Positions 37,789 to 58,051 of a stretch of DNA of 64,000 nucleotides are shown piece by piece (the first letter of the stretch is position 1; the number at the start of each line of letters is the position of its first letter). The DNA comes from an uncultured Bacteroidales bacterium. GTDB taxonomy: Bacteria > Bacteroidota > Bacteroidia > Bacteroidales > F082. The stretch is taken from contig CAJOIS010000001.1 of NCBI GenBank assembly GCA_905234645.1, positions 62,001 to 126,000 of the forward strand, read 5' to 3'. The notes beneath the pieces are model-generated. The model was not told the origin of the DNA and did not search any database. It was given only the letters and a program-made list of their open reading frames with translations. The translations under genes and the position numbers were made by a program.

Positions 37789-37800
37789 AACAAAGAAAAA

Positions 37801-38808
37801 ATGGAACTACATAAAATAGAAACAGAACATCCTTTTATCGGATATGGCGAATCTCGTCAAGGTGGACGAAGCGAAAACCAAGATTCGTTCGGCTTTGCGG
37901 ATACCAAGTTCGGCTTGTTGGTCACCGTGTGCGATGGTATGGGTGGTGGGCCAGGAGGCAAGACAGCCTCAAGCATTGCCGTGAAAGAAATCATAGATGG
38001 GGTTATAGAAGCCAATGATGATGAAACACCTTCCAATGCTCTGTTGAAGGCAATTCATCGTGCCAATCTTGCGATAGTATCCTCTGCTGAGGAGAATCCA
38101 AGATTGAAAGGCATGGGAACGACTTGCACGGCACTTTTAATTAATAAGGAGTCGGCTGTTATCGCGCATGTGGGTGACAGCCGCGTTTACCAGTTGCGCC
38201 ACCATCGTAAGGTGTTTCGCACCTTCGACCATTCTCTTGTATTCGGTCTGGTGAAGGAAAAAGTCATCACCGAGGAACAGGCGCGCCTCTCTGATCAGTC
38301 GAATGTCATTACCCGTGCACTTGGCCTTGATGCAAAGCTGGAAATCGACATCACCGAAAGAGCTTACGAAAAAGGGGATCGCTTTATGCTTTGCACAGAT
38401 GGAATTCATGGCACGATGCCTGAAAAAGAATTAATACTGAAAGCTACCAAAAGTAAAAACGCGGGGCAAACCGTCGATGACCTCGCCACTCAAGTAGATG
38501 GGGAAGGAAGAAGGAATGGCGGTGGTCACGATAACCTAACAATAGCCATCATCGAAACGAAACAAAACTCAATATTGAAGGAAAAAATGAGTACAAGAAA
38601 CAAATTCATCCTTGTCGGCATTGCGACTTTGTTGGTCGTAAGCTGCATATTGAACATCACACAATGTTCGAGTAATAATAAGCCTAAAAACAACGAGGTG
38701 TCTTCTTTAGTTTACGATACGCTCATACAAACGGACAGCACTTTGTATCTTATCAGCATTACTGATTCCAATAAATATGACACGATTATTTGTACGAAGA
38801 AACAATAA
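37801..38808 (+). CDS. PP2C-family Ser/Thr phosphatase with C-terminal TM
   Basis: GGRSENQDSFGF, VCDGMGG, IAHVGDSRVYQL, CTDGIHG, GGHDNLTIAII; TM FILVGIATLLVVSCILNI. Confidence 0.93.
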   Translation: MELHKIETEHPFIGYGESRQGGRSENQDSFGFADTKFGLLVTVCDGMGGGPGGKTASSIAVKEIIDGVIEANDDETPSNALLKAIHRANLAIVSSAEENPRLKGMGTTCTALLINKESAVIAHVGDSRVYQLRHHRKVFRTFDHSLVFGLVKEKVITEEQARLSDQSNVITRALGLDAKLEIDITERAYEKGDRFMLCTDGIHGTMPEKELILKATKSKNAGQTVDDLATQVDGEGRRNGGGHDNLTIAIIETKQNSILKEKMSTRNKFILVGIATLLVVSCILNITQCSSNNKPKNNEVSSLVYDTLIQTDSTLYLISITDSNKYDTIICTKKQ

Positions 38809-38821
38809 ATAAATCCATACC

Positions 38822-39922: not shown

Positions 39923-39951
39923 GTAATAGCAAACAATAAAATTAAAATATT

Positions 39952-41577
39952 ATGAGATTACTGAAAATTGGCAGTTCTCCGGACTGCGACATCGTGCTCA
40001 ATAGTAGAAGAGTCAGTGCCCTTCATGCGGAGCTGATCATGCTCAACAACGGCGATATCCTACTCGAAGATAAAGGAAGCACCAATGGCACTTATGTCAA
40101 CAACCAACCTATCAAACAGGGTGCATCAGTACCGGTGCGTCGTGGCGACCTGATTCGCTTTGCTGATACGGAGCTGCAATGGTCGTCCGTACCTCAACCT
40201 TCGAATAACAGCATGTTCAAGAAAATTTACGGCATCGGAAGTAACATGCGCTACAACGACATTCAGGTGACAGGCAATACGGTGAGCCGTTTTCACGCCA
40301 CTTTGAAGATTGACAAGCAAGGCCGTGCCTTTATCGAAGATCACAGTCTGAACGGTACGTCTATCAATGGCAAGCGTATTGCGGCTCATCAGAATGTGCG
40401 TGTGAAGCGTGGTGATGATGTGGTGGTGGGTGGGGTCCCTGTTGACCTGAAGCCTTATATCAAGCCAGATATTTGGTCGACAGTACTGAAAGTTGGCGGT
40501 AGTGCTGCTGCAATTGCTGCTGTGGTGCTATTGGTTTTAAATGTCTTGCCAAATCCTTGGCATAAGCGTCCAAGTATCGAGGCATTGATGACGGCTACAC
40601 CATGCGTCATAGGAGCTTATTATATTGATGTGACTATCAAAGACGATCCTCTTAAAGAATTGCTGCCAGGGGAATGGCCAAATTCCTGGCGATTCGGATA
40701 TGACGCAAAGTCGAATGAATGGGTTCTTGGTGGAAGTAACCCCTGCATTTATAATGGAACAGCGTTCTTCATTTCAAAATATGGTGAAATGGGTACGAAC
40801 AGACACATTGCAGTGCCATGGGATGAAGTGGCTACATCTCCTACACATGTATTTAACATTAAACTTCAGATGAAGAACGCAATACATGATCTTATTTTGG
40901 ATGAATTCAAAAAGAGGGAGAATAATAAACAGGCGGAGTTTCAAGCGGCTAAAATATATATATTGGCGAATTACGGAGTGGAAATAAAACAAGAAGATGA
41001 GGATGCTGAAACCAAATATGTAAAAAGGGTTATGGAGATGCTTGATCAATGTGAATTTCAAATATCAGGTAACTTCTCCTATCTCGGCATTCTTTTACGA
41101 GGTAACACATTTACTACCCAAGCCGACTTGATGGCTTGTCAGGTCATTGCTGAATCAGGGGATCCCAATAAAGATGTCGCTTTGCTTCGTTTGAACAATC
41201 CTGAAACGCCTCGTCGCGTTTTAGAGAGAGGGTGGTATTATATTGAGAATGCCCGTATTGATGAAACAAAATTGCGAATTAATGAGCCTCTACAAACCAT
41301 AGGATACCCTAATGGTTTGGCGACGGGTATGAATATGGGTAATGGTCAGGAACTAAATCCCTCTCATGCGAATGCCACAATGAGTAGAAAACCGGACAAC
41401 AACCGGTTCCAAATGCAAACTATTGCTATGGGAGGACAAAGTGGTTCTCCTGTAATAGATGCCAAACGCAATCTTGTCGGGGTGCTCTGTTCTGGATATC
41501 GAAACAATGAAATTACTTATTGCTGCAACATTAAGCATTTGGTGGAATTGTATAACAGATACAAATGGGTGGAATGA
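39952..41577 (+). CDS. Double FHA - TM - trypsin-like serine protease
   Basis: Two FHA cores (KGSTNGTYVNNQ, DHSLNGTSINGKR), TM, then TNRHI / KDVALLRL / GGQSGSPVID consistent with an H-D-S triad. Confidence 0.88.
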   Translation: MRLLKIGSSPDCDIVLNSRRVSALHAELIMLNNGDILLEDKGSTNGTYVNNQPIKQGASVPVRRGDLIRFADTELQWSSVPQPSNNSMFKKIYGIGSNMRYNDIQVTGNTVSRFHATLKIDKQGRAFIEDHSLNGTSINGKRIAAHQNVRVKRGDDVVVGGVPVDLKPYIKPDIWSTVLKVGGSAAAIAAVVLLVLNVLPNPWHKRPSIEALMTATPCVIGAYYIDVTIKDDPLKELLPGEWPNSWRFGYDAKSNEWVLGGSNPCIYNGTAFFISKYGEMGTNRHIAVPWDEVATSPTHVFNIKLQMKNAIHDLILDEFKKRENNKQAEFQAAKIYILANYGVEIKQEDEDAETKYVKRVMEMLDQCEFQISGNFSYLGILLRGNTFTTQADLMACQVIAESGDPNKDVALLRLNNPETPRRVLERGWYYIENARIDETKLRINEPLQTIGYPNGLATGMNMGNGQELNPSHANATMSRKPDNNRFQMQTIAMGGQSGSPVIDAKRNLVGVLCSGYRNNEITYCCNIKHLVELYNRYKWVE

Positions 41578-43145
41578 TGAAACGATCAATACTAATAATT
41601 GCCGCGATAATGCTTATGGGGTGTATGACACACGCCCAAACCGTGAAATGGTTGGTCGCACCAGAGTATGCCTCCATCACACATTACAGCGAAGACGTCT
41701 TTAAATGCATAGACAAGAATGGGAAGTTACAACTCCTGGATTGGAACGGCCAATCTTTGCTGCCTAAAGACCTTGCTGAAAGAGCTGATGCGGTTACGGA
41801 ATACTCTGACGGCTATGCCGTTGTTTTGCAGGGGAATAAGATCTTGGGATTCTTTCCCGAAGCCAAGCCTCATAATTTCAAATCTGTGAGTGGTGATTAT
41901 TATGCTACAAAATATTCTTTCTTCTCGGAAGGTTATATTGCGGTAGCTCAAGGCAGTGTTGATGGGAAACAGGGCTATATGGATTCAAATGGCAATTTGG
42001 TTCTTAAGTGTGAATATGTTGAAGCATTGCCGGTCCGACATGGATGGGCTGCAGTTACAGAGAACGGCAAAGACGCGAAAACCCTCCCTCGCAGGTATAA
42101 ACGCTCAGACGATTGGTCGGCTAAAGGAATGCCTGCACTTGTAAGTGGAGAAAGTTTTGTGTGGGTAACGTCGTTCAATGCAGATGGGTATGCCTTAGCG
42201 AAAGTGAAGGGTGGAAAATACATTGTCTTTGACACAAAGTTCACGGCGAAAAAAAACAATGTGAATGGGAACAAGGATGAGAATAAGAAACAACTCGTTA
42301 ATGCGTATGACTATTCATATAAACCTGAAGGAAGCGACAAACCTGTTCCGCCTCCTGTTAACTGCACACCTACCAGGAATGGAGATTATTCTACCTATGA
42401 AAAGGGTGGAAAAAGGGGTTTTCAGACTTCCAATGGAAGTGTTGTTCCTGCACAATTCGATGAAGCCCAAGATTTCTATGCTAACCGCGCTATCGTTTCA
42501 ATGGGAGGCAACTATGGCATTATTGAACTTCTTAGTGGCGAGTTCGTCTCTCATTGGTCAAGCGAAAGGGAACGTGTATATGAGTTAGCCAATGAGGCGG
42601 AATCGATTCTGTTTGAACTTACCACTCCTGCATCGGTTGAATCCGGTAAAATCAAATTGGAACTTGACAAAGGTGATGGATACTATGCCGAATGCAATGG
42701 TTTGACATGCAATTTCACAGTGGCTGATCAAGTTATTAATCGTAAGAACCATAAATGCGAGTTGAAAGCGAGGGCTACTTATTGTGAGAATGGATACCCC
42801 AATCTCGTATTATGGGAAGAGACGCGTGATATCAATATCAGCTATATTAACATTGACATGAGCAATCCTGTCGTTACTTCGGAATATGCTGATGAAAACG
42901 ACAACCAGACCGTTAAGGCAGCTGTAACCAACAACTCGGATGTCGCCGTTACCGTGTCGGCAAAACTCACGGTAGACGGAAAGACAGTCCCTTTCAAAGG
43001 AGAGCTTTCGCCCAAACAATCGAAAACCATAACAGTAACCGTCAAAGTGAATGAGGATAAACATGTCCAGGCGACGATAAGTGCTGGGGTTGATGGACAC
43101 AATTGTGGAAGCAAGTCAGGCTATGTATCATTAAAGAAAATCTAA
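41577..43145 (+). CDS. Secreted WG-repeat-like protein
   Basis: MKRSILIIAAIMLMGCMTHAQ signal; YMDSNGNLVLKCEYVEALPVRHGWAAVTENGK and GFQTSNGSVVPAQFDEAQDFYANRAIV repeats; start at 41574 or 41577 overlaps the upstream stop. Confidence 0.8.
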   Translation: MKRSILIIAAIMLMGCMTHAQTVKWLVAPEYASITHYSEDVFKCIDKNGKLQLLDWNGQSLLPKDLAERADAVTEYSDGYAVVLQGNKILGFFPEAKPHNFKSVSGDYYATKYSFFSEGYIAVAQGSVDGKQGYMDSNGNLVLKCEYVEALPVRHGWAAVTENGKDAKTLPRRYKRSDDWSAKGMPALVSGESFVWVTSFNADGYALAKVKGGKYIVFDTKFTAKKNNVNGNKDENKKQLVNAYDYSYKPEGSDKPVPPPVNCTPTRNGDYSTYEKGGKRGFQTSNGSVVPAQFDEAQDFYANRAIVSMGGNYGIIELLSGEFVSHWSSERERVYELANEAESILFELTTPASVESGKIKLELDKGDGYYAECNGLTCNFTVADQVINRKNHKCELKARATYCENGYPNLVLWEETRDINISYINIDMSNPVVTSEYADENDNQTVKAAVTNNSDVAVTVSAKLTVDGKTVPFKGELSPKQSKTITVTVKVNEDKHVQATISAGVDGHNCGSKSGYVSLKKI

Positions 43146-43183
43146 TCAATCAATTAATCAATTAACCTTAAATTTTAATTCTT

Positions 43184-43828
43184 ATGCGTAAACATTTATT
43201 GTTACTTCTGTTTGCAGCATTATGCTGCAACGGGTTGCTCGCCCAGGAAGAGTGCGAGGATGACAGACCTCTCCGCATGGCTATAGGCCCCAAAGTAGGT
43301 GTCGGATTGGACATGGGAAGCCATTCCAATCTTGAGAATCTTAAATTCGGAGTGGGCTTCGGTTACCAAGTTGGTGCCGCGTTCAATGCCCAATTCGGAC
43401 GTCGCACTGAAATGAGCTGTGGCGGTACTGGCTGGTTCGGTCTGCAGATTGAAGCCATGTACAGTGGCCGTAACATCAAGCTTGGTTCGTCGAGATTGGG
43501 AACAAGCTGCATTGAAGTGCCTGTGTTGGCGCAATTGTATTTCACGCCAAATTTTGCTCTTCAGGCTGGCGCTACACCAGTGTTTGTCCTTAAAGGTACA
43601 CCTAACGAGCTTAATTATGAAGGCGCAACTTACGGCACTGGAAAAATCAAAGGCAACGATGTGATGATTACTGCAGGTTTGGCTTACAAAGCCCGCTTCA
43701 ATGGTAATTCGGCCTTACTAATCGATGCTCGCTACAACATGGGCATGAGCAATTTGGCTGGCAACTTCGACACGAAGGTCAGTTCCGTCATGCTCTCGCT
43801 CTCTTACTTGTTCAACATTGTAAAATAA
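43184..43828 (+). CDS. Outer-membrane beta-barrel (PorT-like) protein
   Basis: Signal peptide; AIGPKVGVGLDMGS... LLIDARYNMGMSNL...VMLSLSYLFNIVK. Confidence 0.8.
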   Translation: MRKHLLLLLFAALCCNGLLAQEECEDDRPLRMAIGPKVGVGLDMGSHSNLENLKFGVGFGYQVGAAFNAQFGRRTEMSCGGTGWFGLQIEAMYSGRNIKLGSSRLGTSCIEVPVLAQLYFTPNFALQAGATPVFVLKGTPNELNYEGATYGTGKIKGNDVMITAGLAYKARFNGNSALLIDARYNMGMSNLAGNFDTKVSSVMLSLSYLFNIVK

Positions 43829-43836
43829 CCTAAAAA

Positions 43837-44808
43837 ATGAGAGTCATGAAGAAATATATGATTATGTGCATGGCAGTTGTTGCCTTGCTGTTTGCATCTT
43901 GTAAAAATGAGGACATCTCGATTTCGAGAGAAGTGAGATTTACAGTGAATCCTTATGATGTCATCAATGGGTTTGTGAACAATCAAGCAAATGAAGGCGA
44001 TCTGGATTTGCTTCCCAATTCGTATAGAGTCCGTACCCAAGTGTATGTGTATGACACGGATGGGAAATTGGTGAATTATGATGTGGATTATCTGAAAGAT
44101 TATCATTCCACCATGAATACCTCATTTGATTTGCCTGATGGTAATTATATTGCAATTGCCACAACGGATGTGGTGGAGTATAATGGCAGGGTTGATTTTG
44201 AGTTTTGGAAATTTGAAGGCAAAGAAAAACTTACCGAGCTAAAAATCAATCATGCTGGTTATTTAGGCTATGAACACAAGATTTTGGGCGTAGGCCGTCA
44301 AAATGTCAATGTGCAACATGGTCAAACCGAATATGCCATCCGATTGGAACCTCAGGGGGCTTTGGCCTTGTGCATTGTATGGGGTATCCAATCGTTTAAT
44401 GATGTCACATGTTATAATTTGATGACTAATAGAGCATTTAAATGCTGCTCGTTTAATAGTGATGGAACTTGGGAAGTGTCATGCGAGGAAGTCATATTCA
44501 ACAAGTATGTATATCGTTTTTATCCTAATAACTATTCTAGTTATGGTGGATATGGCTATCAGTTTATTCCAGTGGGCGGATCGAATTTCAGGTGGGATGC
44601 TGATACCAATTCGGGCGAGTTGGAAGATATTACGGATGGCGCAAAGAGCCAGAACATTGTACCAGGTAAAACCTATCAATTTGAGCTGTTTTTACCTGAA
44701 TTGGAGTTCTCCATCACAAATCTTGATGGTAAAGGAACGCCTAGTTTAGGGAATCAGCTTTCAAAAGATACCGATATGAGCCGTTGTGTTGGAGTTGATG
44801 CAAACTAA
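43837..44808 (+). CDS. DUF5119-like lipoprotein
   Basis: Lipobox LLFASCKN, ISREVRFTVNPYDVING; internal ATG MKKYMIM is the likely start (43846). Confidence 0.65.
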   Translation: MRVMKKYMIMCMAVVALLFASCKNEDISISREVRFTVNPYDVINGFVNNQANEGDLDLLPNSYRVRTQVYVYDTDGKLVNYDVDYLKDYHSTMNTSFDLPDGNYIAIATTDVVEYNGRVDFEFWKFEGKEKLTELKINHAGYLGYEHKILGVGRQNVNVQHGQTEYAIRLEPQGALALCIVWGIQSFNDVTCYNLMTNRAFKCCSFNSDGTWEVSCEEVIFNKYVYRFYPNNYSSYGGYGYQFIPVGGSNFRWDADTNSGELEDITDGAKSQNIVPGKTYQFELFLPELEFSITNLDGKGTPSLGNQLSKDTDMSRCVGVDAN

Positions 44809-44814
44809 ACTCTT

Positions 44815-46056
44815 ATGAAAAAGTACTTAATGATGATTGCCTTGGCCGTTGGCTGTATGCTGCCGGCCAAGGCCCAAGTTGTGCAGACCCTGACTCTGAA
44901 AAACGGTTCTCGACTGCATGGCTACATGAAAAGCCAGAAACCTGGCAATAACTGCGTTTTCTATGCAGAAACCGCTGAAGTGGTGATGGATGGTCAGAAA
45001 GCGAAAAGCGTTGTCGGGAAAAAGGTCGGCTATAACAGCCTCTCTGCCGAATGGAAAGCCTATGCTGATGAAAATGGCTTGTTAGACAAGAAGAAAGAGC
45101 TGACCCTCAGCAGCATTGATACGGGTGCCATGATTGAAAACGTGCTAGTGCTTGAGCAAGGTCGCTTCGTGAAATATATCGAGTTGAAGCATGATTATAC
45201 ACTACGGTGGAACAAAATCGGCATGATGGAATACATGCAGCGAGATGAGTTGCTTCTTTCGGGTGTCAATCATACGTTCAAAGTCAAAACAGGCGACATG
45301 GCAAGAACCGTTACGGGACAATGTATCAAAAAGATTCCTGGAGCATTGACTTTTCTCTTGCGAGAAGACGGTGTGATAGAGTCGATTGAAACCAAAGATA
45401 TCTTGAAAGACAATCTGGTTCCCAACAATCCAAATCAAACCATCTTTGAGCAGAGTGTTCTGCTTGATGAGGTAAGGATGAAGGACGGTGAAATCCATCA
45501 AGGCATTATCATGGAAAACAACTACGAGGAAAATCCCAATTGTCTCTTGCTTGTAAAAAAGGTTGGAGAAGTGGAAACTCCCGTGATGCTGAAAATGAGC
45601 GATGTGATGGAATATCGTAATCTTCCCAATCCTGATTATGTAGAAGTTCGCGATATCCTGCTCAACCCTGGCCAAATTCTTGTCAATGGCAATGAGGCTG
45701 AACTTGTGAAACTTACCGAACAGTCGAATGGTTATGTTGTTGCTCCTGCCGCGAAGCGTGTCACTTTGAAGCATGAAGGCCATAACTTTGAGGTATGTAT
45801 CCAAGCCAACTTTAAAGACGAGAAAGAGGCTAAGGACAACTACTTCATCAAGACCCGCACTTATGAAAACGATAAGAAACGTGCCGGTTGGTATTACTTC
45901 AAGTACAAAGACCTCATCGAGTCGAGCATTCAGCCCAATGAGAGTGGAACCAGTATGAACAACACCACCAAGGCTACATATACGGTCAATTCAAAAGGTG
46001 TGTATGTGTTTTACAACTCTAACACTAAAAAAGCGGTGGTGATTGTAGTAGAATGA
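44815..46056 (+). CDS. Secreted protein of unknown function
   Basis: Signal peptide MKKYLMMIALAVGCMLPAKAQ; complete ORF following the upstream genes. Confidence 0.75.
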   Translation: MKKYLMMIALAVGCMLPAKAQVVQTLTLKNGSRLHGYMKSQKPGNNCVFYAETAEVVMDGQKAKSVVGKKVGYNSLSAEWKAYADENGLLDKKKELTLSSIDTGAMIENVLVLEQGRFVKYIELKHDYTLRWNKIGMMEYMQRDELLLSGVNHTFKVKTGDMARTVTGQCIKKIPGALTFLLREDGVIESIETKDILKDNLVPNNPNQTIFEQSVLLDEVRMKDGEIHQGIIMENNYEENPNCLLLVKKVGEVETPVMLKMSDVMEYRNLPNPDYVEVRDILLNPGQILVNGNEAELVKLTEQSNGYVVAPAAKRVTLKHEGHNFEVCIQANFKDEKEAKDNYFIKTRTYENDKKRAGWYYFKYKDLIESSIQPNESGTSMNNTTKATYTVNSKGVYVFYNSNTKKAVVIVVE

Positions 46057-46114
46057 AAAACAATTATTGGAGAAGACATTGTGAAACACAGAGGATTATG
46101 TATTTATTCGAACG

Positions 46115-46149
46115 GAGGACAGCAAGATCGAATCAAACTGTCCTCTTTT
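46115..46149 (+). terminator. Possible terminator GAGGACAG...CTGTCCTCTTTT
   Basis: 8-bp stem, 15-nt loop, short T run between 46056 and 46186. Confidence 0.5.
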
Positions 46150-46185
46150 GAGTAATTGGTGTCAAACTCATTTTAGAAGCATAAT

Positions 46186-46809
46186 TTGACAATAATACAA
46201 ACTTTTCATAAAATGAGAAATACAACTCGTTGGGATACACTTTATTCTTTTGTTAGGGATAGGAAGAGAGATGAAAGCAAAGCCAACCTTATAGGGCTTA
46301 CATATTATCCAATTGGGTATTGTAGTCATCCGATAGCTAATCCAATTCAATGTGAAATAATAACTATGGGAGCATTCCCAATTATTTTTGGCGAGCCCCA
46401 AGTTTCGTTATATCTAAATAGAATAATACACCATGATTTCAGTTTTAACATGCAGCTAATCGTGGATGTGAAAAGCGGAGAAAAGACAGATGATTGGAAA
46501 TTGCACAAATTGCAATGCGGGAGTGAGATAGGAGAATTGTTGTCTCCATCAAGTGTTATGTTATGGGATATCACGGCGGAGTTTTCTTACATGATTACAG
46601 AACCGAGTGATTATGTCTTTGTCAATGATAAGAGTAGAAGTTTTGTCGTGTTTGAGATAAAGAAAAGATATGTAGGAAACCAATGCCCTCGTTGTGGATA
46701 CGGACCGATGACAGCATTCCAGTATCCTCATAATACGCTTGATAGTTTATTAACAGATAGGAGATTTGGATTTAGATGTATGAATTGTGGATATGAAGAA
46801 TACAAATGA
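46186..46809 (+). CDS. Hypothetical protein with C-terminal zinc ribbon
   Basis: QCPRCGYGP...RCMNCGYEEYK; start may be the internal MRNTTRW. Confidence 0.6.
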   Translation: MTIIQTFHKMRNTTRWDTLYSFVRDRKRDESKANLIGLTYYPIGYCSHPIANPIQCEIITMGAFPIIFGEPQVSLYLNRIIHHDFSFNMQLIVDVKSGEKTDDWKLHKLQCGSEIGELLSPSSVMLWDITAEFSYMITEPSDYVFVNDKSRSFVVFEIKKRYVGNQCPRCGYGPMTAFQYPHNTLDSLLTDRRFGFRCMNCGYEEYK

Positions 46810-46825
46810 TTAATATTGCTACGTT

Positions 46826-47797
46826 ATGGCTAGTATTAGACTACAAAACGAATTCGAGAAGAATATCTATTATGAGTATGATTCTTCTACAAAGCCTTTG
46901 GGTGAAGGCGGTATGGGACGTGTGTTCCGTGGAAAACGAATTGAAACCAATAATCAGGGAACCGTTTTGAGGGAGAGAAATGTGGCTATCAAATGCATGT
47001 ATGATAATCTCCCTGAACACGTCATTATGAGAGCCCGGCGCGAAGCATCCATACGTGTCAAGAGCCTTAATTTAATCGAAATGATTGATTTTGTGGAGAT
47101 TAAAAAGGGTCAAAATGTTTATTACCATGTGGTCAGTGAGCTTCTTGAAGGTGTTAACTTGGATGAATTATTGGAAGGCCGAGTTGACAATCATGATGGA
47201 AGCCCCAACCCGTTTGCAAAAAAGTTGTATAACCAATATCAACAGAATCGCAAAGCCTTCATTGGCATGGTGTTTAGGGGACTTCTTTCTGGAATTAGCG
47301 TGTTGCATGATCAGGGATATATCCATAGAGATATTGATCCATCGAATATTATGATTACATCCGATGGTGATGTTAAGCTTATTGACTTCGGAATTGCAAA
47401 AAAGATTGATGCCCTTGCTACCACTGATAAGCAACTAACTTCGGACGGGCAATTCGCAGGAAAAGTTTGTTATGCGGCCCCAGAACTTGTTTTAGGTGAT
47501 TTAAAGCATCAAAGTAAGACCACAGATATCTATGCTTTGGGTGTCACCTTGTTTCAACTTGTGACCGGGCATCTCCCATTCGAAGGGTCTTTTACAGAAG
47601 TTTATAAGAAACAACTTAATGACAAATTGCCTCTGAAGGAAATCAATGACAAAGTGTTGAGATCCATTATCGACAAAGCTACTGATAAGGATCAGAATAA
47701 AAGATATCAAAGTGCAGCTGAGTTCAGAGTGGCGATAGATGAATGGATGTCTGGCAACGGTGGACAAGACGATGGCAAGAAGAAAAAATCATTATAG
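46826..47797 (+). CDS. Ser/Thr protein kinase, paralog of the 35194 kinase; likely N-terminal half of a kinase-TM-MORN protein
   Basis: LGEGGMGRVFRG, HRDIDPSNIM, IDFGIAKK; ends GQDDGKKKKSL* exactly where the -1 frame gives a TM helix. Confidence 0.88.
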   Translation: MASIRLQNEFEKNIYYEYDSSTKPLGEGGMGRVFRGKRIETNNQGTVLRERNVAIKCMYDNLPEHVIMRARREASIRVKSLNLIEMIDFVEIKKGQNVYYHVVSELLEGVNLDELLEGRVDNHDGSPNPFAKKLYNQYQQNRKAFIGMVFRGLLSGISVLHDQGYIHRDIDPSNIMITSDGDVKLIDFGIAKKIDALATTDKQLTSDGQFAGKVCYAAPELVLGDLKHQSKTTDIYALGVTLFQLVTGHLPFEGSFTEVYKKQLNDKLPLKEINDKVLRSIIDKATDKDQNKRYQSAAEFRVAIDEWMSGNGGQDDGKKKKSL

Positions 47798-48287: not shown

Positions 48288-49334
48288 ATGAAAACAAATA
48301 AGAGAATATTTGCAACTGTATGTGGGCTGCTGTTTCTGTCTCTGATTCCGTTACAAGCGCAAACGACCGACGAATTGAGGCTGACCAATAATCAATTAAG
48401 TGCAAAAAACAAGTTGTTAGAGGATAAGAACCAGTCCCTGGAAAAACAATTAAAAAAATGTCAGAGAAAGGCATATGGTAGTAATTATAGTGAACTGCAA
48501 GCCGAAAATGATCGGTTGAAAGAAGAAGTCAAAAAGCTGGAGGCTGATTTGGCTGCGCTATCAAGTGTAAACAGTAGTGAGAATAAAACAGCTCTTGACA
48601 TCAAAGACCCTGCATTCAAGGCCCATTTGTTGCATTATTGCGACATGGATAATGATGGTGTAATTACTACTTGGGATGCCGAACATACGTATGTGATAGA
48701 TTGCAGTCATAAAAACAAAGGGTTATTTTTGAATAGTGGGTCTTAACCGATATATAGTCTTGAGGGCATCGAGGCATACAAAAACCTAAAGAAACTTATA
48801 TGTTCTGGCAACGAAATTCGTATAATTGACTTGAGCCATAATTCTTTACTCGAAACAGTTGAAGTGGATGGGTGTAGTTTAAAGGTGCTTAAAATTAATG
48901 AAAACACAGATTTGAAGCGATTGTCATGTAAAAATAATGCATTGCGTGAACTTGACATAAACAATAACCCTAATCTGACTTTTTTGGATGTCAGTGATAA
49001 TGAACTCAATGTTATTTCATTAAATAATAATCCGAATCTTACAGAGTTATATTGTGCTAACAATGGATTGGTATCAATAATGGCTTCGAACAATGTTGAA
49101 TTGGAAGTTATTGATTGTTCCAACAATATGTTGAATAGCCTAGATTTGTCGAATACCGCAGTTGATAGCGTCATGTGCCAGAACAACTCGCTGACTTTCC
49201 TTGATTTGCGAAACGAAAGAACTATCTCATACCTTGATTGTACGAAGAATAAGAAACTTGAGAAAGTGTTGATTAGCCAAGAACATTTTGTTGTGACGGA
49301 TAAGAACAAGAAAATACGTTATGAAAACGAATAG
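48288..49334 (+). pseudogene. Secreted coiled-coil / EF-hand-like / LRR protein split by one in-frame TAA at 48744-48746
   Basis: ORFs 48288-48746 and 48831-49334 share a frame; the joining translation ...LFLNSGS*PIYSLEGIEAYKNLKKLICSGNEIRIIDLSHNSLLETVEV keeps the LRR pattern. Confidence 0.75.
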
Positions 49335-49363
49335 TAGAGACGGTGCACGCACCGTCTCTACAA
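49332..49363. repeat. GTAGAGACG-family palindrome TAGTAGAGACGGTGCACGCACCGTCTCTACAAA
   Basis: Long inverted repeat at the end of the LRR gene. Confidence 0.75.
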
Positions 49364-49409: not shown

Positions 49410-49458
49410 ACAAAAAACAGACTAACCCATTAAAAGTTGCGTACGACACGAAATATCG

Positions 49459-49466
49459 TATTTTTG
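49459..49466 (+). promoter_or_regulatory. Putative -7 element TATTTTTG (possible -33 TTGC at 49437)
   Basis: TAnnTTTG match 30 bp before the caspase ATG at 49497. Confidence 0.45.
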
Positions 49467-49496
49467 CAACCCATAAGCCATGTTAAAACTGCTTTC

Positions 49497-50357
49497 ATGA
49501 AAACCATATCGTATATAGCGGCTATCTTTTTCTTGTTTTTGTCTTCGCATCTCCCTGCCCAGACCAAAAGAGCACTCGTCATTGGATTGGGCAAACAAGA
49601 AGACAAGAATTGGGCAAAAATCAATGGTGACAAGGATGTGCGTTATGTGAAAGACATGCTGACATGGGCGGGATACGACGAATTGGATACACTGGTCAAT
49701 GAGGAGGCCACAAAAAAGGGAATTGTCGCTGCGTTCCATGATCTGGCGGCAAAATGCGGAAAGGGCGATGTGGTCTATATCCACTTTTCAGGCCACGGGC
49801 AGCAGGTGACAGATGTTGACGGTGATGAGGAAGACGGTTGGGATGAATCTTGGATTCCATACGATGCATACGTGGAGTATGGTGACATGGACCAGGGAGA
49901 GAAGCACCTTGTCGACGATGAAATCAATGTGTTGCTATATGCCATCAGGGACAAGATCGGCGACGAGGGGGCTTTGTTGGTCGTCGTTGACGCATGCCAT
50001 AGTGGAGGCTCCGCATCATCGCGAAGCGCCGCTATCAAGGAGGGCAATGCGGTGAGGGGAATTGACAAGCGATTTGTGATCCCGACAACCGAAAAGACAA
50101 GGAGGACACCGGATTCAGAGCCATGGTTGACTTTGAGCGCCTGCGCCGATTACCAGTCGAATTTCGAATTGAAAAGCCCTCAAGTCGGCAAGCTGACCTA
50201 TGCCTTGTATTCCGTTTCAGGAAAAGGGGTGGTGACGATGGATTCGATTGTCGGCTTTATGAAAAGCCTGAGAAGCGATAGACGAAGCAGTAACGTCCAG
50301 ACCCCTGTGTTGACGGGTGATGCAACAAAATATGAGTTGTCAAAAATCTTACAATAA
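49497..50357 (+). CDS. Exported caspase-family (peptidase C14) protein
   Basis: Signal peptide MKTISYIAAIFFLFLSSHLPAQ; catalytic-type motifs YIHFSGHGQQ and VVDACHSGG. Confidence 0.92.
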   Translation: MKTISYIAAIFFLFLSSHLPAQTKRALVIGLGKQEDKNWAKINGDKDVRYVKDMLTWAGYDELDTLVNEEATKKGIVAAFHDLAAKCGKGDVVYIHFSGHGQQVTDVDGDEEDGWDESWIPYDAYVEYGDMDQGEKHLVDDEINVLLYAIRDKIGDEGALLVVVDACHSGGSASSRSAAIKEGNAVRGIDKRFVIPTTEKTRRTPDSEPWLTLSACADYQSNFELKSPQVGKLTYALYSVSGKGVVTMDSIVGFMKSLRSDRRSSNVQTPVLTGDATKYELSKILQ

Positions 50358-51007
50358 TGGCCAAAACATTTCAATTGTTCTCAAAAAAATACACGGATGT
50401 TGATTTCGTTGAAGGTGTGTATAAACATGACAGAAGGATAGAGCGATCCTTATTTGACCATTGCCAGGAATACTATGATGAAAAATACGGAAGTGTATTC
50501 TTTGCGGGTGACGAAAAAAAACACGATATCTTTCAAGAGTCGTTCATGGTGATGTGGAAGAATATCATGCAAGGAAAACTATATGTCGAAAACGGTGTGC
50601 TTTACGGTGGAGGCGAGCCATTCAAGGCAAAGCTTACTACTTATTTCATGAGTATTGCCATGAATAAATTCAAGGAGTGGCTTCGCGACAATCCACATGC
50701 AACCTATACCGACGAGGAACTTGCGATGGCAAAGCAACTCTATGAACAGTGGAATGCTGATACGGATGTTATGGACGAACGAGAAAAGAAGTTTGAGATT
50801 TTGGAGGAATGCATTGCCAATATGCCGAATCATTGCAGGCAAATCCTTACGATGTTCTATTATGAAATGAAATCGTTGGATAGGATTTTGGATGAACTCG
50901 CATCATATTTGAGCAAAGATGCCCTCAAGACAGCCAAATACAAATGTATGGAAAGATTGAAAACCACTGCGAATGAAGTCTATGACAGATATTTGGCCAA
51001 AGCATAA
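50357..51007 (+). CDS. ECF-like RNA polymerase sigma-70 family factor
   Basis: DIFQESFMVMWKNIMQGKL...LTTYFMSIAMNKFKEWLRDN region-2-like; C-terminal MPNHCRQILTMFYYEMKSLDRILDEL region-4-like; TAATG overlap with the caspase gene. Confidence 0.85.
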   Translation: MAKTFQLFSKKYTDVDFVEGVYKHDRRIERSLFDHCQEYYDEKYGSVFFAGDEKKHDIFQESFMVMWKNIMQGKLYVENGVLYGGGEPFKAKLTTYFMSIAMNKFKEWLRDNPHATYTDEELAMAKQLYEQWNADTDVMDEREKKFEILEECIANMPNHCRQILTMFYYEMKSLDRILDELASYLSKDALKTAKYKCMERLKTTANEVYDRYLAKA

Positions 51008-51034
51008 AAACAAACAATATAAAACTAAAAGATC

Positions 51035-51706
51035 ATGAAAATTGATTATCAAGACAGAATTGACGATTACCTGTTGGATAGGATGACGCCAGGGCAACGC
51101 TCGGCATTTGAGCGGGAACTTGATTCCAACAGCGAACTGAAAGAGCAGCTTGAGTTTACTCAAGACATGCAACATGCCCTGAAAAGCCGAAACGAGAAAC
51201 TGGAGGCCATGAAAGAGTGGGAGGGCCAAGGTGCTCATACCCACAAAAGCGTGGTTTATTGGGTTTCAAGCATCGCGGCCGTACTCGTTATCGGCCTGTT
51301 CCTGTTCCCTGGCATTAATAGAATGCAAAGGAGTCCTGATTTGTCAGAATGGGTGCGATTCCAAGAAGGTGTCCGGTCTGGCGGTACTTCCTACGCCACC
51401 ATTGACTCACTGCTTTTGCAAGAGAACTACGAGGACGCTCTTGTCCTGATAGAGAAGGAAATCTCGGAACTGAAAGCCGATTCATGCAGAATTGCCAACG
51501 ACACGACTATCAACGAAGAGGCATTGGAATACAACATGCTTCTTGTCGATGAAAGCAATGACGATCTGAAATGGATGGAAGCCATTGCACTGCTAGGCCT
51601 TGACAGGAAAGACGAAGCCTTGACAATACTGGACGAACTTCGAAATAAGGAAGGGATTTACCAAGAACAAGCTAAGTCGCTATATAAACTTGTTAAAAAG
51701 AAGTAA
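51035..51706 (+). CDS. Anti-sigma-factor-like protein with single TM and TPR-like exported part
   Basis: IDDYLLDRMTPGQRSAFERELDSNSELKEQLEF N-terminus; TM VVYWVSSIAAVLVIGLFLFPGI; follows the sigma gene. Confidence 0.7.
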   Translation: MKIDYQDRIDDYLLDRMTPGQRSAFERELDSNSELKEQLEFTQDMQHALKSRNEKLEAMKEWEGQGAHTHKSVVYWVSSIAAVLVIGLFLFPGINRMQRSPDLSEWVRFQEGVRSGGTSYATIDSLLLQENYEDALVLIEKEISELKADSCRIANDTTINEEALEYNMLLVDESNDDLKWMEAIALLGLDRKDEALTILDELRNKEGIYQEQAKSLYKLVKKK

Positions 51707-54484
51707 ATGAAAAAAACAATTGTCGTCGTTTTGTCCCTCGTTTTGATGGGCTTGCCATTGGTGGCGCAAGAAACCTCTGAAGATGTGGTTTCGCCTGAGA
51801 CTTTGTATATCGAGGGAACTCGTTCCCTTGAAAAATATGATGTAGGGCAAGCACTTCGGTGCTTTGAAAATGCACAAAAGGGTTTCCATGAAAAAGGAGA
51901 CAAGAAGTATGAACTCGATTCATGGTGCCATGTCGGCTGGATAAAAAGGTTTCTCGGTGATTTCCATGGGGCATGGGAAGCCTATCGTCAAGCCGAGCTG
52001 ATGGCGTTGTCCTTGCAAAGTAGCGATAAACTGGCGTCAATTTACAAGGAACAATACTTGTTAAGCAAAGATCTCAACAATAATGGGTTGAGGCAAGAAT
52101 TAATGCAAAAAATGGATTCATTGGCTGATTCTTTCCTTGACGACAAGACAAGGTTCCCTTATTATGACATGTTGGGAGACATGGCTAAGGAATACGGCGA
52201 CTTCATCATGGCTGAACGCTGGTATAAAAAAAACGATCCATACATCATGAGTTTGGACAAGGGCAAACCCAATGGCGATAGGCGTATGCATTATGGCAAT
52301 TTGTGCTCGCTTTATGAGCACATGGGCAGATGGGACGATGCTTTGTATTATGCTCAGCTTAACAAAAAGGAAATCCAAAAAGAGGAAGACGCAATCGATC
52401 CTTCCCAATACGTTTACTCTTACAACGAAGAGGCCCTAATATATCGTCGCATGGGAGATAGTGTCCGATGCTTTCAGGCCATTGACACGATGTTTTCCTT
52501 GCTGAACCTGGTTGATGAGCCAAGGAAATCCAGTAAGCTATATTTGACCAGAGCCGTTTGTAATAATGCATTCGGGAATTATGAAAACGCTTTGGATGAT
52601 TATAAGGCCGCTGACAGTTTGCTGGCGACTAAATATGGAGAGCTTGACGAGGACAGGGTAAGGCTGTTGCCACTCATGGGAGGCGTAGAGCATCGGCTAG
52701 GCCGTTATGAATCGTCGGAAAACTATTATCGGCAATATGCGGAAAGATTAAGGGAATTGCTTGGAGAAAGGCATAGTGATTATATTAATTCATTGGTCTA
52801 TCTCGCTAATGCGGAAGGAATTAATGGCAGTATCGATGCGGCTTGCGAGGATTACACCATAGCTTTCGCGAAATTGAGACAAAAGGTTCAGGATGATTTC
52901 CCTTATCTTACCACCTACGAAAGAGAAGGATATTGGAAATCCGTTTCCGAGGCAATATGGAACATGACGCCTTTTGCCATAGCTGCGCAAGAGTTGCAAA
53001 CACCTTTCACAGAGACCTGCTATAATGGACTGATCCTTTCAAAGTCATTTTTGCTCGAATCGGAACGCACGGTTTATGACCTGATAAAGAAAGAAGGGAC
53101 CGAAAACGACAAGCGTGATTTGGCTGCGATTGATGCTGCACGCTCCGAAATCCGTGAATTGGAGAGGAAAGAAGACAAGGATACGGATAGCATACTTTTG
53201 CTGACCAAAAAAATCGAGCGCTTGGAGTCGCAGCTGGCAAGCAGATGCCGCAGCTATGGTGACATGACCGCTTTTATGAAAACGGATTATCAAAAGGTAA
53301 AGGAAAAGCTGAAAGACGGTGACGTCCTCATTGATTTTACTGACTTCGTCTCACGATCACAGGGCAGGAAATATGTGGCATATTTGATCAGGAAAGAAGA
53401 TGATTATCCGCTTCTCATGAGCCTTTTTGCCGAAAGTAAGATTGACTCCATGCAGATAGCTTATCCGGATTTGTTTTACGAAAGCCCGTATGCCGAAGCA
53501 ATCTGGCACGTTTTATGGGAGCCATTTCAAGATTATGTAAAAGAGGGGTCGACGGTTTATTATGTGCCGTCACAAGTCTTGCTAAAGATAGCAATCGAGT
53601 CATTGCCCTATGGCGACGGGTCGCTTTTGGGCGACCATTATCGTTTCATCAGGCTTTCTTCGGCACGCGAATTAACAAGGATGAATGTCAAGTTGTCTAT
53701 GAAGGTGGATCCGGAAAGGACAGATGCCGTGCTTTATGGAGGCCTGGTTTACGATGTTGCCCCAAACACGATGCGGGAAGAAGCCCACAAGTATGATATT
53801 CAGGATTTGCTTGCTCAAAGAGGAAGCCGTGTACGAGGCGATTCCCTGTGTTATCTTCCATGGTCAAGGGTCGAGATAGATTCCATTGAGACCGTCCTCA
53901 AAGCGCATCATTTTAATGTGTTGACATATTTTGAAGAGAAAGGAACGGAAGAGTCGTTTTTGAGTTTGGATGGTATGGCCCCTCCCGTATTGCATTTGGC
54001 TACACATGGTTTCTTTTACACGCCGAATGAGGCAGCTGAAATTGACTATTTGAGAGGTTATAGCGATGCCATGTCCCTCTCTGGCCTTGTGATGGCTGGT
54101 GGAAATAGGGCGTGGACGGGAAAAGCACTCCCGGAAGGAGTGTTAGGGGGCATATTGACGGCCTCCGACATCGCGAGCCTCGATTTGAGCGACGTGGAGC
54201 TTGTCGTGCTTTCGGCCTGTCGCACGGGAGATGGTGAAGCCACTGCCGAAGGCTTGTATGGCTTGCAACGTGCTTTCAAGAAAGCAGGAGTAAAGACGAT
54301 GGTCATGTCGCTGTGGGATGTTGACGATATGGTCGGCACTGAGTTGATGACGGCTTTCTATAAGAACCTATTGGACGAATCCTATGCCATGGACAAAAGG
54401 AAAGCGTTTGATGCCGCGAAATCACTTATCCGTGACAAGTATCGTGAACCCTATTATTGGGCTGGCTTTGTGATGTTGGATTAG
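51707..54484 (+). CDS. Exported TPR-CHAT domain protein
   Basis: Signal peptide MKKTIVVVLSLVLMGLPLVAQ; TPR region; CHAT motifs VLHLATHGFF and LVVLSACRTGDGEATAEGLYGLQRAFKKAGVKTMVMSLWDVDD. Confidence 0.93.
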   Translation: MKKTIVVVLSLVLMGLPLVAQETSEDVVSPETLYIEGTRSLEKYDVGQALRCFENAQKGFHEKGDKKYELDSWCHVGWIKRFLGDFHGAWEAYRQAELMALSLQSSDKLASIYKEQYLLSKDLNNNGLRQELMQKMDSLADSFLDDKTRFPYYDMLGDMAKEYGDFIMAERWYKKNDPYIMSLDKGKPNGDRRMHYGNLCSLYEHMGRWDDALYYAQLNKKEIQKEEDAIDPSQYVYSYNEEALIYRRMGDSVRCFQAIDTMFSLLNLVDEPRKSSKLYLTRAVCNNAFGNYENALDDYKAADSLLATKYGELDEDRVRLLPLMGGVEHRLGRYESSENYYRQYAERLRELLGERHSDYINSLVYLANAEGINGSIDAACEDYTIAFAKLRQKVQDDFPYLTTYEREGYWKSVSEAIWNMTPFAIAAQELQTPFTETCYNGLILSKSFLLESERTVYDLIKKEGTENDKRDLAAIDAARSEIRELERKEDKDTDSILLLTKKIERLESQLASRCRSYGDMTAFMKTDYQKVKEKLKDGDVLIDFTDFVSRSQGRKYVAYLIRKEDDYPLLMSLFAESKIDSMQIAYPDLFYESPYAEAIWHVLWEPFQDYVKEGSTVYYVPSQVLLKIAIESLPYGDGSLLGDHYRFIRLSSARELTRMNVKLSMKVDPERTDAVLYGGLVYDVAPNTMREEAHKYDIQDLLAQRGSRVRGDSLCYLPWSRVEIDSIETVLKAHHFNVLTYFEEKGTEESFLSLDGMAPPVLHLATHGFFYTPNEAAEIDYLRGYSDAMSLSGLVMAGGNRAWTGKALPEGVLGGILTASDIASLDLSDVELVVLSACRTGDGEATAEGLYGLQRAFKKAGVKTMVMSLWDVDDMVGTELMTAFYKNLLDESYAMDKRKAFDAAKSLIRDKYREPYYWAGFVMLD

Positions 54485-54509: not shown

Positions 54510-54548
54510 AAAATTGCGTGAGCGAAACCGCTCGCGCAATTTTTTTTG
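54510..54548 (+). terminator. Rho-independent terminator after the CHAT gene
   Basis: AAATTGCGTGAGCG-AAAC-CGCTCGCGCAATTTTTTTT. Confidence 0.85.
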
Positions 54549-54588: not shown

Positions 54589-54663
54589 TCAAATCAAACA
54601 AAACAACAACACTTAATAATCAATTTAGAAGTTGCGCACGACACGGATTTAGTGCATTGAACA

Positions 54664-55101
54664 ATGAAAAACCTCAAGAAAACCTTCAGAAACTTGACAA
54701 TGGCTGCAATGATGATGACAGCGACTTTCTCTCTCTCATCTTGTGATGTGCTGCTAGGTACAATGGCCGGTATGTATTCTTATCCTTACGGTACGATGTC
54801 ATATTCTGGAAATAACGACTACTTGTTGGATCCGGGCTATGCCGTTTGGCAAGTCCAAAATGGCATTTACTTGGGAGGTACGAGTGGCTCAAGCAGCACC
54901 TCAAGCAGTTCGACTACCACTTCTTCGACGACTACCAAAACCCACAAGTGTGGTGTTTGTGGAGGAACTGGAAGAATGACAGAAACCAAGGGTGTCCCTT
55001 CATTCGGCAATACCAAGTATTGCAAAGAATGTGGTAAGACTGTTCCTGACAACCACTACCATACAAAATGTGTAAGCTGCGACGGCAAGGGCTGGTGGTA
55101 A
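54664..55101 (+). CDS. Lipoprotein with DnaJ-type zinc-ribbon CxxCxGxG motifs
   Basis: Lipobox SLSSCD; CGVCGGTGRM, CKECGK, CVSCDGKGWW; Ser/Thr-rich linker. Confidence 0.8.
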   Translation: MKNLKKTFRNLTMAAMMMTATFSLSSCDVLLGTMAGMYSYPYGTMSYSGNNDYLLDPGYAVWQVQNGIYLGGTSGSSSTSSSSTTTSSTTTKTHKCGVCGGTGRMTETKGVPSFGNTKYCKECGKTVPDNHYHTKCVSCDGKGWW

Positions 55102-55148: not shown

Positions 55149-56324
55149 ATGAGTAAAAACAACAATTCAGAAAAGACCACCTCCCTCGGCAGAGGCATCA
55201 AGCAAGCCGCCCGCTGGGCAGCCAAGATGTTCGGCTACAAAGCCGAGAACAAGTACGCAAGGGGCGTGTGGTATGTGTTCGCCACAAGCGCTGCCGCGTT
55301 GACACTGTATGCAGCCGTCTCACTTACCATCCTCGTCATCCAGGAAGTGGATCGGTACAAGTACAATCGCCAGAGCAAACGCGAGGCAAACGACCCCACC
55401 TTCCTTCACAACTATCGCAACACCTACGTCAGCCCTTATGTCGTCCACCACGACGGCTCGCCCAACTACCTCTACAACATGAGGACGGGCCGTCGCACCC
55501 TGACGGGCATCAACTGGATCGCCAAGCCGAGCGATGGCGACAGCTTGGCTTGCTTCTGCGCGGGCTACGATCATGAACGCAAACGCGGTTATTTCAACGT
55601 GTTCACGGGCGAGCCAGTCATCCCGGCGCAATATGACAAGGCATGGATTTTTTCCGACGGCTTGGCCTGTGTCTACGAAAAGGGAATGCTCCACTTCATC
55701 GACCATGATGGGAGAAAAGTGATGGACAAGGAGTTCCCTTACGGCATCCGCAACGACGACTATTGCTTCCACAATGGGCTTTGCATCATGTATGACGAAA
55801 ACGGACGCTTCGGCCTCATCGACAAGCAGGGCGAATGGGTGGTGGAGCCACAATACTACGAGATTGAGTATGACACAAAAGGCTTCTGGCTGGTGCAGGA
55901 CTGCGATTGGAATTATGGCCTGCTCGATGCAAAGGGGCAGATGTTGCTGCCTGTCGAGTATGGCAACATCACCATCCACCATGACGACAGCTGCATTTTT
56001 ACGCGCCATCTGAACCATGTCAATCAGGTGCTCGACTTCGAATGCAATGTGCTGAACAGCTGCAATTACATGAGTGTCGAAATGCTGGAATACAACAATG
56101 GCGAATACGATGAGAATGGGGATCTGAAAACCTATCCGGCGAACTGCATGGAATACTTCACCACCGAATGGTATTGTGGCCTGATGGACAAACAAGGCAA
56201 CATCATTACGCCACCCATCTATTCCAGAATCGAGGCCATATCAGCCAACCGTTACCATTGCGACCGGGCTTATGGCTCGGTGATATTGGACGACAAAGGA
56301 CGGGAAGTAGGGGAGAAACTGTAA
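55149..56324 (+). CDS. Membrane-anchored WG-repeat protein
   Basis: N-terminal TM YVFATSAAALTLYAAVSLTILVIQ; FGLIDKQGEWVVEPQYYEIEYDTKGFWLVQ, YGLLDAKGQMLLPVEYGNI, CGLMDKQGNIITPPIYSRIEAI. Confidence 0.9.
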   Translation: MSKNNNSEKTTSLGRGIKQAARWAAKMFGYKAENKYARGVWYVFATSAAALTLYAAVSLTILVIQEVDRYKYNRQSKREANDPTFLHNYRNTYVSPYVVHHDGSPNYLYNMRTGRRTLTGINWIAKPSDGDSLACFCAGYDHERKRGYFNVFTGEPVIPAQYDKAWIFSDGLACVYEKGMLHFIDHDGRKVMDKEFPYGIRNDDYCFHNGLCIMYDENGRFGLIDKQGEWVVEPQYYEIEYDTKGFWLVQDCDWNYGLLDAKGQMLLPVEYGNITIHHDDSCIFTRHLNHVNQVLDFECNVLNSCNYMSVEMLEYNNGEYDENGDLKTYPANCMEYFTTEWYCGLMDKQGNIITPPIYSRIEAISANRYHCDRAYGSVILDDKGREVGEKL

Positions 56325-56340
56325 AGATTATGATATTATG

Positions 56341-56384
56341 AAGGTCTGCAAGGCTGTGGAGACGGTCTTGCAGACCTTTTTTTT
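56341..56384 (+). terminator. Rho-independent terminator
   Basis: AAGGTCTGCAAG...CTTGCAGACCTTTTTTTT. Confidence 0.85.
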
Positions 56385-56776: not shown

Positions 56777-58051
56777 ATGGACAAGACCTATAAGAAAAGA
56801 ATAGCTGACAGGCTGTTGGAGCGTAAATTAGCAGGCAAAGGGGCTGTGCTTATCGAGGGCGCGAAGTGGTGCGGAAAGACCACCACAGCGGAGCAGATTG
56901 CCAAGAGCGTGAAATATATGACGGAAACAGGAATGGTTGACCAGAATATCAAGATGGCGACGCTGAATCCGAAGCTGCTGTTAAGAGGTAATTTTCCTCG
57001 GCTTATCGATGAATGGCAGATTGCCCCTCAACTGTGGGACAGCATTCGTTTTGAATCAGACCACGGCGCGCTGGGTCAGTTTATTCTGACAGGCTCAGCC
57101 GTCCCTGCTGACATGAGCAAGGTGGTTCACTCAGGAACAGGACGCATTGGGTGGCTTAGGATGCGCCCCATGAGCCTATGGGAGTCGCAGGAATCGACTG
57201 GAGAGGTGTCGTTGGCTGAATTGTTTGAAACACCCGAACAAGTTGGAGCCATCAACAATATGGACATTGACCGATTGGCTTTCCTGACCTGCCGCGGAGG
57301 ATGGCCATTGGCTGTGGATATGGAACACGAGATAGCCTTAGACCAGGCGTTTGACTATGTGGAGGCGGTTGAGAAACGTGATATTTCGAAGGTGGACGGT
57401 GTGGAGCGCGACCCCGTAAGGGTTCACCGCCTGCTGCGCTCACTGGCGCGAAACCAAGGCAGCCAGGCATCGTGCGGCACTATCAAGGCAGACTTGATAG
57501 CGAATGAGTCGGACGCTTTGTCGGAAGATACCATCGCATCGTATATCAAGGCTCTGAAAGAGATTTTTGTGGTAGAGGACAGCGAGGCTTGGAATCCGAA
57601 CTTGCGGAGCAAGACGGCGATACGGACGAGCGACACGCGGTATTACACCGACCCATCGATTGCCACCGCTGCATTAGGCATAGGCCCTCGCGACTTGGTG
57701 AACGACTTGAACACCTTCGGATTGATGTTTGAAACATTGGCCGTGCGAGACCTGCGAGCCTACGCCGATGCACTCAACGGTAAGGTGTACCATTTCCGGG
57801 ACAAGAACGGTCTGGAATGCGATGCTGTGGTGCATCTAAGGAATGGTCGTTATGGCTTGGTTGAAATAAAGCTGGGGGGCGATGACCTCATCAATGAAGG
57901 CGCAGCATCATTATTGGATCTTGCAGGCAAGATTGACACGGAGAAGATGAAGGATCCTTCGTTTATGATGGTGCTGGTGGGCGTGGGAACGTATGCCTAT
58001 CGCCGTGAAGACGGAGTGTTTGTTGTGCCCATTGGGTGCTTGAAGGATTAA
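56777..58051 (+). CDS. AAA_14/DUF4143-type ATP-binding protein
   Basis: VLIEGAKWCGKTTTAEQ Walker A, RLIDEWQ, FILTGSA, C-terminal GLECDAVVHLRNGRYGLVEIKLG. Confidence 0.93.
   Translation: MDKTYKKRIADRLLERKLAGKGAVLIEGAKWCGKTTTAEQIAKSVKYMTETGMVDQNIKMATLNPKLLLRGNFPRLIDEWQIAPQLWDSIRFESDHGALGQFILTGSAVPADMSKVVHSGTGRIGWLRMRPMSLWESQESTGEVSLAELFETPEQVGAINNMDIDRLAFLTCRGGWPLAVDMEHEIALDQAFDYVEAVEKRDISKVDGVERDPVRVHRLLRSLARNQGSQASCGTIKADLIANESDALSEDTIASYIKALKEIFVVEDSEAWNPNLRSKTAIRTSDTRYYTDPSIATAALGIGPRDLVNDLNTFGLMFETLAVRDLRAYADALNGKVYHFRDKNGLECDAVVHLRNGRYGLVEIKLGGDDLINEGAASLLDLAGKIDTEKMKDPSFMMVLVGVGTYAYRREDGVFVVPIGCLKD

Follow-up and report, generated by a model that had tools for sequence, protein, structure and literature searches.

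A conserved caspase, sigma factor, anti-sigma and CHAT protease operon of gut Bacteroidales as a candidate self-amplifying sigma switch

In this study, we analysed a 64,000-nucleotide stretch of DNA (hereafter the window; positions 62,001 to 126,000 of contig CAJOIS010000001.1, assembly GCA_905234645.1) from an uncultured Bacteroidales bacterium of the F082 lineage, and characterised a four-gene unit at 49497-54484. These genes form one head-to-tail run on the + strand, encoding a predicted exported caspase, a divergent extracytoplasmic function (ECF) sigma factor, a transmembrane (TM) anti-sigma and a predicted exported tetratricopeptide repeat (TPR)-CHAT protease. We consider that there is a slightly better than even chance that they constitute a self-amplifying extracytoplasmic sigma switch driven by the exported clan-CD proteases. 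In the resting state, the sigma factor would stay bound to the one-TM anti-sigma at the inner membrane. When an envelope or periplasmic signal activates the TPR-CHAT protease, the metacaspase-like protease or both, one of them would cut the anti-sigma after a conserved arginine in the flexible juxtamembrane linker (R114 in VR114-SGG), and housekeeping intramembrane or cytoplasmic proteolysis of the RseP/Clp type would then liberate the sigma factor. The freed sigma would recognise GGTTACTT-N15-CAT[A/T]A before its own operon, giving positive feedback, and before a neighbouring operon for exported proteins.

The genes of this unit are closely coupled. The start of the sigma gene (50357..51007, 216 aa) overlaps the caspase stop as TAATG at 50357, and the ATG of the TPR-CHAT gene (51707) immediately follows the anti-sigma stop (51706), so that the genes, their order, the overlap and the adjacency are all as a preliminary description of this DNA had given them. 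Terminator-like hairpins on the + strand form both borders, upstream at 49334-49361 (a 12-bp stem with seven GC pairs) and 3' of the CHAT gene at 54510-54543. The TPR-CHAT gene is single-copy in the assembly (2.59 Mb, 77 contigs, 84% complete), which holds in addition one weak match to its TPR region. For comparison, we assembled 80 loci by scanning named genomes with a caspase alignment and added ten other loci and the window, which together hold 74 sigma genes; a few loci entered twice under two names (e.g. L070/L177 and L077/L163), and the counts are slightly inflated accordingly. The caspase lies directly upstream of 62 of the 74 sigma genes, an anti-sigma with a single TM segment comes next after 70 (one TM in 70/70), and CHAT follows the anti-sigma in 33, with median gaps within the unit of 2, 11 and -4 bp. 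This linkage is far above chance expectation. In other loci, CHAT precedes the caspase gene or has a membrane anchor, and among loci sampled across the phylum by the sigma factor alone, CHAT was within four genes in 13/39. A first sample of 247 genomes of the order already showed caspase, sigma and anti-sigma together in other families. The 80 loci come nearly all from gut, rumen or faecal Bacteroidales, including Prevotella, Phocaeicola, Paraprevotella, Leyella, Muribaculaceae, Alistipes and Paludibacteraceae. Across 25 full quartets the four proteins co-diverge (Mantel r 0.78-0.92), which fits inheritance as a unit and also a shared species history.

Within the family, the module is accessory and patchy, a match to this caspase being present in 8/173 genomes. 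Such patchiness would fit a conflict or anti-phage system, in which sensing of an attack leads to protease-driven cell death; a weak PADLOC match of the caspase, a kinase/FHA/PP2C cluster nearby in the window and the analogy to type III-E CRISPR point the same way. However, the proteins are predicted to be exported, no nucleic-acid sensor was found, and the regulon described below contains small exported proteins. We also checked for a conserved kinase/FHA neighbourhood around the related loci and found none, the neighbouring kinases not being conserved beside the module. Accordingly, we regard a defence function as very unlikely.

Both proteases carry intact catalytic residues. The caspase (49497..50357, 286 aa; Pfam Peptidase_C14, E=3.8e-15) has a caspase p20 fold with a His-Cys dyad, H100 (49794-49796) and C167 (49995-49997), and both residues are present in 62/62 caspases of the related loci; the histidine motif reads HFSGHGQQ and not HSGHGQQ as described earlier. 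Its best solved relatives by sequence in the Protein Data Bank (PDB) are metacaspases, and when it is aligned to yeast Mca1, D47 and D165 fall on the ND and DSCHSG positions. These acids are kept in 60/62 and 62/62 caspases, respectively, and acids of this type build the S1 pocket in metacaspases. All characterised non-metazoan C14 enzymes favour Arg or Lys in the P1 position (PMC5756287), and D47 and D165 support a putative basic P1 specificity of this caspase. After the catalytic cysteine, the linker holds R187-G188, which is invariant (62/62) and is possibly a self-processing site. Because fused caspases without sigma linkage also have an RG, it is to be read from the sequences as a family trait; the large caspase fusions in other parts of the class are not linked to a sigma gene.

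The TPR-CHAT protein (51707..54484, 925 aa) combines a TPR arm with a CHAT domain (Pfam, E=1.7e-47) bearing the dyad H767 (54005-54007) and C838 (54218-54220), and His and Cys are present in 29/29 CHATs. When its structure model (pLDDT 85.8) was compared with the PDB, the top fold matches were Csx29 (8eey, E=1.7e-12), Myxococcus xanthus DdvA (second, E=4e-12) and separase, a protease that cuts after Arg. These relatives were obtained through the fold search only, as a PDB sequence search with the CHAT domain returned none. The large TPR arm raises another explanation, that TPR-CHAT is a non-proteolytic receptor whose arm binds a ligand or envelope protein and contacts the anti-sigma linker, altering sigma binding without a cut. 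In this case, the conserved arginine could be a docking site, and the M. xanthus TM anti-sigma DdvA does resemble the TPR-CHAT fold. However, a protein selected only as a receptor would have no need of an invariant catalytic pair, and many partner anti-sigmas expose tails of just 34-63 residues, so that we consider this explanation unlikely. In the switch that we favour, these proteases would act outside the cytoplasm. The preliminary description had ascribed signal peptides to both and set them apart from cytoplasmic CHAT effectors; this contrast holds insofar as both are predicted to be exported, where the prediction is based on hydrophobic N-termini recognised by eye and with a crude script, and not on SignalP.

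The sigma factor passes the TIGR02937 (sigma70-ECF) model narrowly, with 43.7 bits against a curated cut-off of 42.9. On sequence alone the Pfam sigma domains stay below cut-off, and ECF sigmas of the PDB match weakly (E 0.0007-0.01); it consists of the sigma2 and sigma4 regions only, as ECF factors do. The anti-sigma (51035..51706, 223 aa) is likewise below the Pfam cut-off on sequence alone, and its NF052375 match is far below cut-off. It is identified as an anti-sigma by its place in the gene order, its single TM segment and the structure model, and sigma binding is putative. The AlphaFold2 model (mean pLDDT 87.5) begins with three N-terminal helices (3-65) and the TM segment (74-90); a linker of low confidence (91-117) connects these to a TPR-like bundle (118-222), for which Foldseek yields weak TPR-type matches only. 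This periplasmic bundle had been suggested earlier as the substrate or sensor. As a general role, this is not supported, since 16 related anti-sigmas have periplasmic tails of about 34-63 residues without TPR and retain the arginine motif.

What is kept in these tails is a hydrophobic residue followed by Arg and Gly/Ser/Ala, about 13-30 residues past the TM segment. R[GSA] occurs in 52/58 non-redundant anti-sigma tails, as compared with a shuffle mean of 21 and a maximum of 33, and no enrichment was seen for K[GSA], E[GSA] or D[GSA]. A looser [RK][GSAT] pattern was dropped because it is frequent by chance alone. In the window, the motif is VR114-SGG, with R114 (51374..51376) as a candidate basic P1 site in the disordered linker; it appears as alignment column 115, MAFFT being one residue off there. 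Across the phylum and within the same sigma family, the motif is present in 15/18 CHAT-linked anti-sigmas and in 4/18 long ones that have no CHAT (Fisher p=6e-4, indicative only, as the sequences are related and their independence is overstated); short anti-sigmas without a nearby CHAT are mixed (4/9). Most of the long CHAT-less anti-sigmas have a trypsin motif, and the three checked by Pfam all have a trypsin domain. Since the arginine motif tracks CHAT while the CHAT-less anti-sigmas have trypsin, one sigma family would appear to use anti-sigmas with either a built-in serine protease or a separate clan-CD protease and an Arg site. The evidence for a cut at the linker arginine by CHAT or the caspase is thus circumstantial, and a meaning specific to the caspase was rejected, because caspase-free, CHAT-linked anti-sigmas also have the motif. 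The trypsin-bearing type was observed at L294, L300, L309-L313, L318 and L321-L328, where the same sigma family is accompanied by anti-sigmas about 360 aa long, the periplasmic part of which in most cases includes a trypsin-like motif or fused domain.

By comparing the regions upstream of this operon, of the next operon (54664) and of related caspase genes, we derived a sigma-type promoter. GGTTACTT-N15-CATAA occurs at 49378 (P1, 49378..49405, +), before the sigma operon, and at 54557 (P2, 54557..54584, +), before the next operon for a lipoprotein and a WG protein, and the 2.59-Mb genome has no further exact copy. The regulon within this genome was sought by pattern only, and copies with one mismatch were at control level. 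Across related loci totalling 1.32 Mb, its general form gave 78 matches, whereas 30 controls with permuted -35 elements gave a mean of 0.8 and a maximum of 4, an excess of about 90-fold, with a sharp spacer preference for 14-16. Sixty-one of the 78 lie at most 150 bp upstream of an open reading frame (ORF) on the same strand. Among the genes thus preceded are nine for sigma factors and seven for caspases. Others encode a second sigma-like protein (190 aa), proteins about 230 aa long and small exported proteins, of which some carry CxxCxGxG ribbons of the DnaJ type (5/40 targets, 10/811 other ORFs). The element is at background in the 173 family genomes, and in the module-bearing genomes of the genus 6/7 matches lie at the module. 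From this position and co-occurrence, we infer that this sigma binds the GGTTACTT element. Since a sigma-type promoter precedes the sigma's own operon, a feedback switch is likely, with P1 as its predicted autoregulatory promoter.

Beside these targets, small exported proteins or lipoproteins with CxxCxGxG recur at window 54664-55101 and at L113, L116, L121, L125, L132, L150, L173 and L180. The second sigma-like protein, divergent and about 190 aa long, stands behind the same promoter type at L121, L125, L148, L149, L155, L156 and L173; a sigma cascade is possible there.

These promoters also raise the question of whether both proteases are products of the regulon rather than its drivers. In this case, the anti-sigma itself or another site-1 protease would sense the signal and free the sigma, and the caspase and CHAT would act as periplasmic effectors of protein quality control, remodelling or self-killing. 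That sigma promoters precede caspase and exported-protein genes agrees with this explanation, as do the replacement of CHAT by other exported proteins in some loci and the trypsin domain fused to anti-sigmas of the same family, by which the site-1 role can be filled otherwise. On the other hand, the linker arginine tracks CHAT linkage and fits the basic P1 preference of C14 enzymes, and pure outputs would need no such tight coupling to sigma and anti-sigma as is seen in nearly every locus. We therefore consider the proteases as mere outputs to be possible and clearly less probable than the proposed switch. In support of protease-coupled release of the sigma, which the preliminary description had suggested, are the invariant dyads, the linker arginine co-varying with CHAT and the self-directed promoter.

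Several points weigh against the switch. CHAT is absent in about half of the caspase loci and is dispensable there, because exported proteins, about 230 and 490 aa long, stand in its place, and the two proteases may themselves be products of the regulon. The arginine motif was found post hoc and in related sequences, and its occurrence in CHAT-linked anti-sigmas without a compact caspase means that the caspase is not the only protease it may indicate. Also, the DdvA match covers the whole fold with a low TM-score (0.25), probably due to a flexible TPR arm. The architecture with the 230 and 490 aa proteins was seen at L077, L126-L129, L141-L145, L161 and L163, preceded by LPP20-like and FGE-sulfatase/PEGA proteins, several of them behind sigma-type promoters. 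A stronger form of the switch, which we regard as doubtful, is a bistable periplasmic cascade: CHAT and caspase would activate each other or act sequentially on the anti-sigma, and the sigma would remake both, giving an all-or-none response. The extracytoplasmic form would in this case be the more general one, and the source of the protease-sigma output of type III-E CRISPR.

In terms of known systems, the best reading of the module, by analogy, is a periplasmic counterpart of Csx29/Csx30/CASP-sigma. The type III-E CRISPR output consists of Csx29 (a TPR-CHAT protease), Csx30 (a sigma inhibitor) and CASP-sigma; as here, TPR-CHAT, an ECF-like sigma and its inhibitor are co-encoded, and the sigma has motifs in its own locus (PMC10028731). 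Csx29 is moreover the top fold match of this TPR-CHAT model. In contrast to type III-E, the proteases here are predicted to be exported, the inhibitor is a one-TM anti-sigma and a caspase is added. Membership in type III-E fails, as scans of the neighbouring genes in the window with Pfam, PADLOC and NCBIfam showed no Cas7-11/gRAMP, and the sigma scores 16.9 bits with the CASP-sigma model NF041236, whose cut-off is 100. M. xanthus DdvS/DdvA (8rot, 8rw5) is alike in having an ECF sigma and a TM anti-sigma, and DdvS acts upon inactivation of DdvA (PMC4374960). DdvA, however, is itself named as the anti-sigma, whereas here the anti-sigma and TPR-CHAT are separate genes and a caspase is present; no single polypeptide joins an anti-sigma to a TPR-CHAT-like region, and the similarity is one of fold only. 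In ECF54, genes for CHAT and other proteases are conserved beside ECF sigma genes and proteolytic control has been proposed, but the group is described as lacking an anti-sigma (PMC8999054), unlike the sigma genes of this study, nearly all of which (70/74) adjoin a one-TM anti-sigma gene. Myxococcus metacaspase genes, in another phylum, have been reported in operons with sigma-70 genes, and the parts of that paper available mention neither a TM anti-sigma nor TPR-CHAT (PMC3501461).

A release step of the proposed kind is established in DegS/RseP-RseA, where a one-TM anti-sigma receives a periplasmic site-1 cut (cited in PMC10028731). We propose such a cut here, but the site-1 candidate would be a clan-CD cysteine protease of predicted basic specificity and not an S1 serine protease; a trypsin domain is present in sister anti-sigmas within this sigma family. 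Our literature search returned no description of a CHAT domain with a sigma factor in Bacteroidetes, most subscription literature, including the main ECF reclassification, lying outside the search, and among the matches listed "CHAT domain" stood with ECF or anti-sigma terms only in the type III-E paper (PMC10028731). An earlier notice of the module in the literature is possible.

To our knowledge, natural substrates have rarely been identified for bacterial caspases and CHAT proteases. The module yields a concrete prediction, a single arginine in the short linker of a co-encoded anti-sigma together with a defined promoter. It would also bring the TPR-CHAT/sigma pairing of type III-E CRISPR into the ordinary signalling encoded by chromosomes of gut Bacteroidales, among them Prevotella and Leyella isolates. 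If the switch is true, caspase-family proteases of bacteria would have a clear part in regulation, distinct from both cell death and CRISPR immunity.

Between P1 and the caspase start lies a 5' leader hairpin (49434..49490, +) of the form AAGTTGCG-TAC-GACACG...-GTA, and a second copy with a CAC...GTG stem lies at 54629..54661 (+). We first favoured the GTTGCGnnCGACACG element of these leaders as the sigma promoter, since its exact copies in this genome stand only before the two local operons. The general form, AAGTTGCG-NNC-GACACGnA(n)-GNN, is found just 5' of start codons throughout the genus (the window, L035, L036 and L225-L259), with about 90 exact copies in 50/99 genomes and none in a reversed control, and its 3-bp stem co-varies (CCC/GGG, CAC/GUG, UAC/GUA and UCC/GGG). 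Because these genus-wide copies form a covarying hairpin before start codons, GTTGCGnnCGACACG is a general 5' leader that is not specific to the module, and the promoter idea was rejected. No known RNA family of Rfam matches the leaders, and some copies occur in tandem with small genes.

Downstream of P2, the first gene (54664..55101, +) encodes a predicted lipoprotein with an LSSC lipobox and the DnaJ-type zinc ribbon, a predicted regulon member. A TM protein with WG repeats (55149..56324, +) is the predicted second gene of this transcript, with a terminator at 56340..56379 (+). Upstream of the operon, an in-frame TAA (48744-48746) interrupts an otherwise continuous exported LRR protein (48288-49334), which may be a pseudogene, an assembly error or a recent mutation. 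A dense signalling cluster occupies 34458-47797, with FHA proteins, three Ser/Thr kinases, PP2C, an FHA-trypsin fusion, WG and MORN proteins; pieces of it recur beside the module only in rare loci, e.g. L114. Farther away, 3852-27719 is one ORF of 7955 aa, and at 56777-58051 an ATPase-like protein matches the PADLOC candidate family PDC-S01 (E=8e-59).

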